Assembly: GCF_003258295.1 (NCBI RefSeq) | Contig: NZ_QKYN01000071.1 | Span: 1 to 44,171, forward strand | Origin: Streptacidiphilus pinicola | Lineage (GTDB): Bacteria > Actinomycetota > Actinomycetes > Streptomycetales > Streptomycetaceae | DNA length: 44,171 bases | Reading direction: 5' to 3' | Shown here: positions 4,814-6,992 of the stretch, piece after piece | Position numbering within the stretch: position 1 is the first letter of the stretch | How the letters are laid out: every line of letters starts with the position of its first letter | Position numbers and translations under genes: made by a program | Notes under the pieces: generated by a model | Seen by the model: only the letters and a program-made list of their open reading frames with translations | Told to the model about the DNA's origin: nothing | Database searches by the model: none

Positions 4814-4842
4814 AGTTGCCGCCGACCGCCGAAAGGTTGCCG
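4814..4842 (-). promoter_or_regulatory. GGCAAC direct-repeat leader element, copy A
   Basis: On the minus strand, CGGCAACCTTTCGG is followed by a second GGCAAC whose first base is 21 bp after the first base of the first copy. The element ends 59 nt before the ATG of the CBM2 hydrolase. Copies B, C and E share sequence, orientation and spacing before other secreted cell-wall-active genes. It could be a tandem operator (21 bp is two helical turns) or an RNA leader element; the sequence does not decide which. Confidence 0.6.
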
Positions 4843-4893
4843 CTCTCCTGACACACCTGGCGCGAGGTGCCCGAAAAAGATCTTCGCCGTTCG

Positions 4894-4923
4894 GAGCAAC
4901 CTTTCTCGGGGCGGTGGCAACTC
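4894..4923 (+). promoter_or_regulatory. GGCAAC direct-repeat leader element, copy B
   Basis: GAGCAACCTTTCTCGG then GGCAAC, again with 21 bp between repeat starts, placed 57 nt before the ATG of the ricin-domain gene. The first repeat has one substitution (AGCAAC). Copies A and B face away from each other with only about 50 bp between them, so the two divergent promoters must be very close or overlap. Confidence 0.55.
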
Positions 4924-4979
4924 AGTGCTGTCCGGACAACCGGTCTGGTCAAAGGCAACAGCTGAAAGAGAGCACCGAC

Positions 4980-6776
4980 ATGCCCCCTCGCCCATCCATG
5001 TCGCCGGAGGCGTCGCCCGGTCCCAGGCGGCGGCAGACGCATCGCGGCCTGCGGCTGCACCAGCGTCGGAGCTTCTGGGCAGCCGTCAGCCTGGCGGTCG
5101 TGGGCGGCTCCGTGGTCGCGATCAACACGGCCTCAGCGGACACCGTGGACACGAACGCCTGGTACGTGCTGGTCAACCACAACACCGGCGAGGTCCTGGA
5201 CGACCTCGGCTACGCCACGAACGACGGTGCCTCGGTGGTGCAGTGGAGCCGTACCGGCGGGATCAATCAGCAGTGGAAGTTCATCGACGCGGGTGACGGC
5301 AACTATCGCCTGGAGAACCGGAACTCCGGCAAGGTGCTGGACGACTACGGCTGGTCGAAGACCGAAGGCTCCCAGTTGGTGCAGTGGCGCGACCTGAACG
5401 GCGCCAACCAGCAGTTCCACCTGGAGAAGTCGCCGGACGGCTACGTGCGTCTGATCAACCAATTCAGCGGCAAGGCCGTCGAGGTCCCGCTCGGCTCCAA
5501 GGCCGACGGGGGCCACATAGCCCAGTACCACGACTGGAACGGCACCAACCAGCAGTGGCAGCTCGTCCCGGCCGACAGCGTCAGCGGCACTGGGAACCCG
5601 GGGAACTCCGGCAGCAGCGCCACGCCCACCACGCCCGCCACGCCGAGCGGTACCCGCCCGACGTCGGCGCCGCCGACCCCCGCGGGCGGCGGCAGCTCGG
5701 CGAAGCGTTTCATGGGCAGCAGCACGGTGCTCATCGGCGGCTCGATGTCCGACGCCTCGGCGGCCGCCGCGCCGTTCGACGTGCGGTACGCCTATGTGCA
5801 CAGCCAGCCCGCGCCCTCGTCGGACTACTACTCGGCAGCGCGCTGCCACGACGGCTGGTCGGGCTGGTGGGGCTGCTGGAACGGCAGCACCACGGCGCCC
5901 GGCACCTACGTGACCTGGCGGGACAGCGTGGCGGCCCAGGCGACATACAAGGGCAGCCCGCGTCCGCAGAAGATGCTCTGGACGTGGTACTCGCTGCGCG
6001 ATCTCGGCGATCTCGCGGGCGAGGGCGACGGTCCGGGCGAGGTCAAGGCCATCAACAGGGTCGACCTGCTCACCCGGTACCTGAACGACTACCGCTTCTT
6101 CCTCCAGAAGATCGGCACCTCGCACGACATGATCGACCTCGAGCCCGACTTCTGGGGCTACGTCCGGTCGCTCGGCGACCCGCGCCAGGTCGCCGCGCAG
6201 GTCACGGCCGCGGACCCGACGGACTGCGGATCGCAGCAGAACAGCGCCGCCGGACTGGCCCAGTGCCTGATCTCGATGGCGCACAAGTACGCGCCGAACA
6301 CCGCCGTGGGAATGCACCTGTCCTGCTTCGACTGGCAGCAGAACACCTCGCAGTGCGTCAAGGACTACGCCGCTCTCGGCGCACAGAACGCCGACTTCCT
6401 GGCGACCGATGTTTCGGACCGTGACGCGGGATGGTACGCGCAGCCCGCCCACGGCGGCCTCGACAAGTTCTGGACCGACCAGAAGGCCGCCGCCCAACTG
6501 GCGTTCTACAAGACGATGGCCGAGTCCGTGGGCAAGCCGGTGGTCCTGTGGCAGATCCCGGTGGGCAACATGGCGCAGAACGACACCCTCAACCACTACA
6601 AGGACGACAAGGTGGACTGGTTCTTCGGGCACATGGCCCAGGTGGCGGCCGCGCACATCGCCGGTCTGCTGTTCGGTCCAGGGCAGCAGGAACAGACCTC
6701 GGTCGAGACCGACGGCGGAAACCTGATCAGCAAGACGATCGCTTACCACAACTCGGGTGGTGTGGCCCTCAAGTAG
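4980..6776 (+). CDS. Secreted ricin-type lectin protein with an unassigned C-terminal domain, possibly a new hydrolase
   Basis: 598 aa. The ATG at 4980 gives an N-terminus with a basic region and hydrophobic segment (about residues 31-53, cleavage near ASA). Residues about 58-200 form a ricin/CBM13 beta-trefoil with three QxW-type repeats (NQQWKF, NQQFHL, NQQWQL). A Ser/Thr/Pro/Gly linker follows (about 202-240). The remaining ~350 residues look like a compact TIM-barrel-type domain: repeated beta-alpha pattern, IDLEPDFWG (E388, D390) and VVLWQIPVGN near the C-terminus. I cannot place this domain in a named GH family. Its neighbours are a CBM2 hydrolase and a xylanase, and the shared leader element suggests co-regulation with them. 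A hydrolytic role in hemicellulose degradation is inference. Confidence 0.75.
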   Translation: MPPRPSMSPEASPGPRRRQTHRGLRLHQRRSFWAAVSLAVVGGSVVAINTASADTVDTNAWYVLVNHNTGEVLDDLGYATNDGASVVQWSRTGGINQQWKFIDAGDGNYRLENRNSGKVLDDYGWSKTEGSQLVQWRDLNGANQQFHLEKSPDGYVRLINQFSGKAVEVPLGSKADGGHIAQYHDWNGTNQQWQLVPADSVSGTGNPGNSGSSATPTTPATPSGTRPTSAPPTPAGGGSSAKRFMGSSTVLIGGSMSDASAAAAPFDVRYAYVHSQPAPSSDYYSAARCHDGWSGWWGCWNGSTTAPGTYVTWRDSVAAQATYKGSPRPQKMLWTWYSLRDLGDLAGEGDGPGEVKAINRVDLLTRYLNDYRFFLQKIGTSHDMIDLEPDFWGYVRSLGDPRQVAAQVTAADPTDCGSQQNSAAGLAQCLISMAHKYAPNTAVGMHLSCFDWQQNTSQCVKDYAALGAQNADFLATDVSDRDAGWYAQPAHGGLDKFWTDQKAAAQLAFYKTMAESVGKPVVLWQIPVGNMAQNDTLNHYKDDKVDWFFGHMAQVAAAHIAGLLFGPGQQEQTSVETDGGNLISKTIAYHNSGGVALK

Positions 6777-6786
6777 CCGGGAGGTG

Positions 6787-6824
6787 CGGACCCGGCCCCG
6801 CCCGCTGTGACGGAGTCGGGTCCG
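6787..6824 (+). terminator. Hairpin after the ricin-domain gene
   Basis: CGGACCCG (6787-6794) pairs perfectly with CGGGTCCG (6817-6824), 10 bases after the stop, followed by TTCTCC. An 8-bp GC-rich stem without a long T run is typical of actinomycete terminators. Confidence 0.5.
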
Positions 6825-6963
6825 TTCTCCTCGTCAGGCCGAGGATGGCCCGGTCGGTGGCCTCACCGCCGCCGTCGATGGGCCAACGGCCGGGGCGGAC
6901 GCGACGAACCAGACCACTGCGCGCGCCCCCTCTCCCAATCGACAAGGGATTTCTCCCAGAACA

Positions 6964-6992
6964 CGGCAACCTTTCGGCCCCCGGCGGCAACT
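6964..6992 (+). promoter_or_regulatory. GGCAAC direct-repeat leader element, copy C
   Basis: CGGCAACCTTTCGGCCC followed by CGGCGGCAACTG, repeat starts at 6965 and 6986, exactly 21 bp apart. It lies 53 nt before the TTG start of the GH10-ricin-GH62 gene. This copy and copy E are closest to the apparent consensus. Confidence 0.6.

Follow-up and report, generated by a model that had tools for sequence, protein, structure and literature searches.

Accounts of how plant-biomass use is regulated in Streptomyces centre on LacI-type repressors, such as CebR and BxlR. A 2025 study of xylan utilization in Streptomyces SirexAA-E deals with LacI-, AsnC-, PadR- and IclR-like regulators, without a mention of "sigma" in its main text (PMC12772271). 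Sigma factors with such a role are known from Clostridium thermocellum and its relatives, whose SigI/RsgI pairs are biomass-sensing systems (PMC6056542). Among extracytoplasmic function (ECF) sigma factors of actinobacteria, SigE of S. coelicolor (ECF39) is controlled by the CseBC two-component system (PMC8999054), serves the cell-envelope stress response and has targets, such as hrdD, with the promoter GGCAAC-N17-CGTC (PMC6767563), and ECF52 and ECF53 are tied to extracellular carbohydrate-binding domains, the sensor being fused to the sigma factor (PMC8999054, PMC10766802). Here we describe a 44,171-nt stretch of the genome of Streptacidiphilus pinicola (assembly GCF_003258295.1, contig NZ_QKYN01000071.1, positions 1 to 44,171; the whole of it is called the window below), in which a 27-bp element with two GGCAAC-like hexamers precedes genes for secreted plant cell-wall-degrading proteins and a gene group containing an ECF sigma factor.

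We are confident that the copies of this element are promoters of that one ECF sigma factor, which would be inhibited by a single-transmembrane protein encoded by an overlapping gene and would drive the expression of plant-wall enzymes. The module resembles SigI/RsgI in that these comprise an autoregulated sigma gene, an anti-sigma gene in the same operon whose product has an extracytoplasmic sensory module and a transmembrane domain, and a regulon of plant-wall enzymes that includes rhamnogalacturonan lyase (PMC6056542). It differs from them in its ECF sigma factor of the SigE family, in its -35 and -10 blocks and in a candidate anti-sigma factor without any Pfam match. With S. coelicolor SigE it shares the GGCAAC-type -35 and the N17 spacing (PMC6767563), and its sigma factor matches the SigE family model TIGR02983, which does not imply orthology to SigE; it differs in the -10, which is C(A/G/C)AC, and in its plant-wall enzyme targets, and its sigma gene adjoins a transmembrane-protein gene, whereas SigE is under two-component control. 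Like ECF52 and ECF53, it is a candidate link between an actinobacterial ECF sigma factor and extracellular carbohydrates, but here the putative sensor is encoded by a separate, overlapping gene and its ectodomain matches no carbohydrate-binding family.

The element has the shared form GGCAACCTTTC-N7-GGCGGCAAC, and the window contains four copies of it (A, B, C and E), each in the orientation of its gene (Table 1). A first-pass annotation, made from the sequence alone, had already pointed out these copies. All four are indeed present at 27 bp, with hexamer starts 21 bp apart, and the extra T in copy E is balanced elsewhere, as had been claimed. Copies B and E show small changes with respect to the shared form, and B begins with AGCAAC instead of GGCAAC. 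The distance from the end of the element to the start codon is 59, 58 and 53 nt for copies A, B and C, respectively, and 40 nt for copy E, the latter value being calculated from the element coordinates and the ATG at 26439. Two details of the annotation did not hold. The gap in its printed pattern, GGCAACC-TTTCGG-N, is wrong, and a rendering of that pattern gave no match within 3 mismatches; moreover, the "decayed copy D", thought to keep the 21-bp spacing, consists of CAAC at 4937 and 4956, which are 19 bp apart and are both missing at this place in a relative (L032). These third and fourth CAAC after copy B (4937-4959, plus strand), each 19 bp from the preceding one, are probably due to chance. 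A weak site is also seen at window position 9554.

With at most one mismatch, the host genome contains five matches to the element, as compared to none for the reversed control, and 6 of 14 genomes of the genus have matches at this threshold. When the two-block pattern was searched at 3 mismatches, 28 matches were obtained in the host genome versus 19 for the control, and the five exact ones are the sites. Outside the window, a further exact copy lies at C133:18568-18594, and a variant site with a different second block (-10 CCAC) lies at C173:32257-32283. The sequence GCAACNTTTC occurs at 12 places in this genome, and at 8 of them it comes with GCAACCTTTC. The -10 inspection covered these 8 places (C4, C8, C242 and C252 were left out) and found the block at offset 23 in five, namely three in the window, the C133 copy and the C173 site. 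C38:10761, C45:62839 and C228:99173 have no -10 block at offset 23 despite GCAACCTTTC, and were not counted as sites.

The element is most likely a two-block ECF-sigma promoter, and neither a tandem repeat nor an RNA leader. In fact, GGCAACC followed by TTT fits a -35 element, with the AAC triad and the T-tract after it that has been described as a feature of ECF sigma factors (PMC6056542, citing earlier work), and C(A/G/C)AC, which lies in the context GGYGRC, sits at the -10 position after N17, within the 16-17 bp expected between the two blocks and with the same spacing as in SigE targets. The gap is nearly invariant in actinobacteria. A scan of the genome_contigs collection with gaps of 6 to 12 returned 55 stretches, which were divided on the basis of the record names: in the 44 actinobacterial loci the gap was 7 in 43 cases and 8 in one, and in the 11 other loci it was 7 in five, 8 in one, 10 in four and 12 in one. 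The functional constraint on spacing that had been proposed is very likely.

The same spacing could be explained by a transcription factor bound to a pair of GGCAAC half-sites that are separated by two helical turns, as in the tandem DNA sites suggested by the first-pass annotation. The fact that both hexamers read GGCAAC in 71 of 94 non-redundant sites (less than 80% identical over 132 bp) agrees with such a direct-repeat operator, many of these sites having been fetched with that very pattern. Equivalent half-sites would however be expected to vary alike, and they do not: among the matches listed, the 51 distinct one-mismatch strings have a changed first hexamer once and a changed second hexamer 21 times, in 18 cases at the single middle base of C-A-AC. 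Nine orthologous promoters, chosen solely by the protein encoded downstream, all keep GGCAACC intact, and their second block is mostly GGCGAC or GACGAC; in relatives it turns into GGCGAC, GGCCAC or GACGAC. Considering also that the sites track one sigma factor, and that the distance to the start codon and a conserved pyrimidine-purine start fit a promoter, a direct-repeat operator appears very unlikely.

The sites were then described as promoters in an alignment whose pattern, used also for the downstream-gene count, fixed CAACC and, in the second block, C23, A25 and C26; the 11 non-actinobacterial loci and L006-L020, which are weak host-genome matches, were left out of both. The pattern admitted only C(A/C/G)AC as the second tetramer, and the 94 non-redundant sites have CAAC in 74 cases, CGAC in 13 and CCAC in 7; T occupies positions 7-9 in 83-95% of them, the first two of these positions having been restricted to T or C. 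Moderate extra conservation is visible in an A/T-rich stretch from -18 to -11 and in a pyrimidine-purine pair at +34/+35, 9 nt past the second block, where a transcription start would be expected; all four window copies have T34-R35 at this position. Spacing was also assessed without motif bias, in 33 loci for which the sigma protein was the only query. They contain 44 GGCAACC, 20 of which are followed by C(A/C/G)AC at offset 23; among the remaining offsets between 10 and 40, none has the tetramer more than 4 times. Directly upstream of the -35 block of L001 and L024, an inverted repeat, GCGCGAAACTTCGCGC, was noticed by eye; it might serve as an operator for a repressor, in overlap with the promoter.

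A structured RNA leader or riboswitch, the other explanation that had been offered, would account for an element that lies near its gene and in the same orientation, and hairpin-like stretches can be seen by eye after the element in some relatives. Nevertheless, Rfam gave no match at the element sites at gathering scores, and with the lax setting the four matches in 4700-7060 were all far below theirs. The covariation signal was not above that of shuffled columns either, since the best 5-bp helix scored 0.363 as compared to a mean of 0.277 and a maximum of 0.403 in 30 column shuffles. We regard an RNA leader as highly improbable; if it is a promoter, the element precedes the transcription start.

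The genes behind the sites were then considered. Out of 98 sites, 87 are followed by a codon-biased open reading frame (fraction of G and C at third codon positions, GC3, above 0.8) at a median distance of 41 nt, a count in which several start codons are doubtful, some sites may be due to chance and two sites share one gene (L062). According to Pfam, and with families overlapping, the 87 genes include 17 ricin lectins, 14 proteins with an expansin-type DPBB domain, 12 and 11 pectate lyases (PF00544 and PF03211, respectively), 9 with sigma region 2, 5 with BNR repeats, 3 GH10 enzymes, 3 rhamnogalacturonan lyases, 3 pectinesterases, 2 GH6, 1 GH12 and 1 GH62; NCBIfam models identify 14 expansins and 9 SigE-family sigma factors. 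A signal-peptide rule, which is a crude hydropathy test with lenient start choice, was positive in 67 of the 87 site genes; of 119 further genes in these loci it was positive in 45 (p = 2e-8). Random positions in the genome, or a lack of enrichment before secreted hydrolase genes, would have spoken against the proposal of the first-pass annotation, and neither was found. The hemicellulose regulon that it envisaged is very likely right as far as a regulon of secreted plant-wall genes is concerned, but it is too narrow, because among the catalytic or wall-loosening groups the most numerous are pectin enzymes and expansins. The proposed GGCAAC-repeat pattern would miss C173:32257, a site in front of a pectinesterase-GH28 gene, with the third sigma paralogue about 3.3 kb away. 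This site supports the promoter model, because it fits the model and yet is no GGCAAC repeat.

The sigma gene of the window is located downstream of copy E and of the expansin gene, and its product scores above the curated NCBI cut-off of TIGR02983. The host genome has 11 matches to it at E<=1e-10, three of which are close (C133:19732, C260:27482, which is the one inside the window, and C173:28463). Two of these three, in the window and on C133, lie about 1.1 kb downstream of an element and behind an expansin gene, and copy E and the C133 copy head these expansin-sigma groups, as expected of a promoter of the sigma operon itself. The arrangement extends to other species: in several loci retrieved via the element, it is followed by an ECF sigma gene, and 9 of the 87 genes after sites match TIGR02983, including those of S. 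rimosus (L073) and Glycomyces (L121, L122); in L107 the start of another gene lies between the element and the sigma gene. SCO1876, which two papers list among sigma factors, is a possible homologue in S. coelicolor, and the window sigma factor may already be catalogued as one of the numbered ECF groups to which no function is assigned.

The link between sigma factor and element was assessed by co-occurrence in 249 genomes of the family, with thresholds of E<=1e-45 for the sigma factor and at most 2 mismatches for the element. The former was present in 134 genomes and the latter in 102, with both in 91, the element only in 11 and the sigma factor only in 43. Thus, sites were found in 91/134 sigma-positive as compared to 11/115 sigma-negative genomes (Fisher p = 3.7e-22, a value that overstates independence because the genomes are related), with 198 and 11 copies, respectively. 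The reversed control gave 19/134 vs. 9/115 genomes (p = 0.16) and 22 vs. 10 copies, and the element is hence at control level in sigma-negative genomes (11 copies vs. 10 reversed). In a second, overlapping draw, the sigma factor was present in 161 of 293 genomes of the order. Chance, or the shared ancestry of recently duplicated upstream regions, can be weighed on the same data. Some of the downstream genes are paralogues or orthologues, as the 14 expansins and 17 ricin-lectin proteins of the 87 illustrate; the element nevertheless precedes unrelated families, its flanks differ to the extent required for the 94 non-redundant sites, and sigma-negative genomes do not exceed the control. Such an origin has next to no probability.

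It is conceivable that the promoters belong to a different ECF sigma factor of the SigE family and that the window sigma is one of several users. SigE sites of S. coelicolor share the -35, and most of the tested targets are only partly SigE-dependent (PMC6767563); furthermore, the host genome has the 11 matches to the window sigma factor mentioned above, three of them close. On the other hand, genomes that lack a close homologue of the window sigma factor are those in which the element falls to control level, and none of the 44 unforced tetramers at offset 23 reads CGTC, the -10 of SigE. We consider this explanation improbable, and assign the promoters to the window sigma factor and its close homologues.

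The transmembrane protein encoded next to the sigma factor consists of about 50 N-terminal residues, one hydrophobic helix, a Pro/Ser/Thr linker and an all-beta ectodomain of about 130 residues. A gene of this kind follows 49 of 51 distinct sigma genes, with a start offset of -4 in 41 and of -1 in 8, the start-codon choice having favoured these two offsets. The two exceptions are the sigma gene of L097, after which this N-terminus is present but continues in a different frame, and one of the two copies in L100. The family has a conserved N-terminal P-D-R-x-R-x-L-A-R motif and a conserved C-terminal domain. Hydropathy and sequence predict the layout of anti-sigma factors with an extracellular sensor (adjacent gene, short cytoplasmic N-terminus, one transmembrane helix, exported domain), and position and topology suggest that the protein is one. 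No RsgI-family Pfam domain was found in the window protein at E<=0.01. In L165, an open reading frame with response-regulator and LuxR domains (2614-4593, minus strand) lies directly after the third sigma/transmembrane pair, in convergent orientation.

The ectodomain was modelled from 48 sequences as a nine-strand all-beta fold (pLDDT 95.5, pTM 0.90). Foldseek returned many unrelated beta-sandwiches at a TM-score of about 0.5, such as integrins, YcnI, cohesins, pilins and diphtheria-toxin chains, and also a cellulose-binding domain of Cellulomonas fimi (0.47/0.56); no match was specific, nor was any obtained against viral models. Because so many unrelated proteins are returned, the fold identifies no ligand. 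A sequence search of the PDB with the ectodomain profile gave only matches at E>=0.18. Weak family matches were present among the 48 ectodomains, two to Cry1Ac domain 5 (best 0.00016) and one to CBM_AftD (0.005), and none in the window protein.

Several observations weigh against the assignment of the element to this sigma/anti-sigma pair. As to the promoter, the 44 unforced tetramers at offset 23 include 24 that differ from C(A/C/G)AC (among them CGCC 7 and CGCG 4; CGAC accounts for 12 of the 44 and CAAC for 8), the -10 differs from the CGTC of SigE, and another SigE-family paralogue could share the promoters. As to co-occurrence, the statistic ignores phylogeny, and 43 of the 134 sigma-positive genomes have no site at up to 2 mismatches, part of which may be explained by the CGAC variant in Streptomyces. 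Of 30 loci retrieved with the sigma factor (L135-L164), no more than 3 have a site in the 500 nt that precede the sigma domain, so that autoregulation elsewhere would need a site further up or is absent; in many sigma-fetched loci the site instead precedes a secreted gene downstream of the sigma/transmembrane pair. Finally, the window transmembrane protein matches no Pfam or NCBIfam family, and the pattern of zinc anti-sigma factors (ZAS) is missing, with no Cys or His among the N-terminal columns conserved in at least 80% of 48 sequences.

Table 1. Proposed promoter copies and associated genes in the window. Transcription starts were predicted from the conserved Y34-R35 position.
Feature	Coordinates	Strand	Remarks
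Secreted glycosidase-like gene behind copy A	2968-4755	-	CBM2; weak similarity to GH79-N / arabinofuranosidase ArfA
Promoter copy A	4815-4841	-	-35 GGCAACCTTTC, -10 CAAC (in GGCGGCAAC); predicted transcription start ~4806
Promoter copy B	4895-4921	+	-35 AGCAACCTTTC, -10 CAAC; predicted start ~4930
Secreted ricin-type beta-trefoil lectin protein behind copy B	4980-6776	+	Pfam match; C-terminal part without family match
Promoter copy C	6965-6991	+	-35 GGCAACCTTTC, -10 CAAC; predicted start ~7000
Secreted GH10 xylanase - ricin lectin - GH62 arabinofuranosidase behind copy C	7045-9486	+	TTG start
Promoter copy E	26372-26398	+	heads the expansin - sigma - candidate anti-sigma gene group; predicted start ~26407
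Expansin EXLX1-type gene behind copy E	26439-27370	+	NF041144 on open frame 26174-27148
ECF sigma factor, 176 aa	27470-28000	+	SigE family TIGR02983, 165.7 bits vs. cut-off 141.55; Pfam Sigma70_r2, r4_2
Candidate anti-sigma factor, 255 aa, single transmembrane helix	27997-28764	+	4-bp overlap with sigma gene

By eye, the frame of the window expansin appears to be interrupted twice, which may be due to a draft error or to decay; its paralogue on C133 has an open frame that matches the expansin family model over the full length. Further along the window, 29340-33487 holds more plant-polysaccharide genes, for an alpha-L-fucosidase and an arabinofuranosidase B-type enzyme, each with a ricin lectin; the element was not detected in their vicinity. 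Rfam reports a group II intron domain at 36950-37010 (plus strand; 45.7 bits vs. a gathering score of 40).

The mechanism that we propose is the following. The transmembrane protein probably keeps the sigma factor inactive at the membrane. Its exported beta-sandwich domain would sense a cue, plausibly a plant cell-wall polysaccharide or its fragments, and the sigma factor would thereby be freed, probably with the involvement of proteolysis; both the cue and the proteolysis are suggested by analogy with SigI/RsgI and with the carbohydrate-binding ECF52 and ECF53 (PMC6056542, PMC8999054, PMC10766802). The freed sigma factor would transcribe its own gene group via copy E and, via copies A, B, C and others, the genes of secreted enzymes acting on pectin, hemicellulose and cellulose.

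Among the best-ranked matches in open-access full text, no description of this sigma factor, promoter or regulon was recognised. The parts of the module are of known kinds, and we judge their combination to be a new case of an ECF sigma/anti-sigma pair with a well-defined regulon. For the Streptomycetaceae and some other actinobacteria as a whole, the chances are about even that they possess an ECF sigma/anti-sigma switch devoted to sensing polysaccharides, whose sensor domain belongs to no family described so far and which is superimposed on LacI-type control; it would respond to plant cell-wall material outside the cell by turning on a regulon for pectin, hemicellulose, cellulose and expansins. 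If this is true, a sigma factor with close homologues in 134 of 249 genomes of the family would place pectinases, expansins, xylanases and lectin-bearing enzymes under a single switch, whose promoter code would be searchable in any genome. It would provide a candidate master regulator for enzyme production, together with an orphan extracellular receptor for which a confident model is available, and what these bacteria sense of plant walls would become directly testable. The system would be an actinobacterial counterpart of the clostridial SigI/RsgI, built from different parts.

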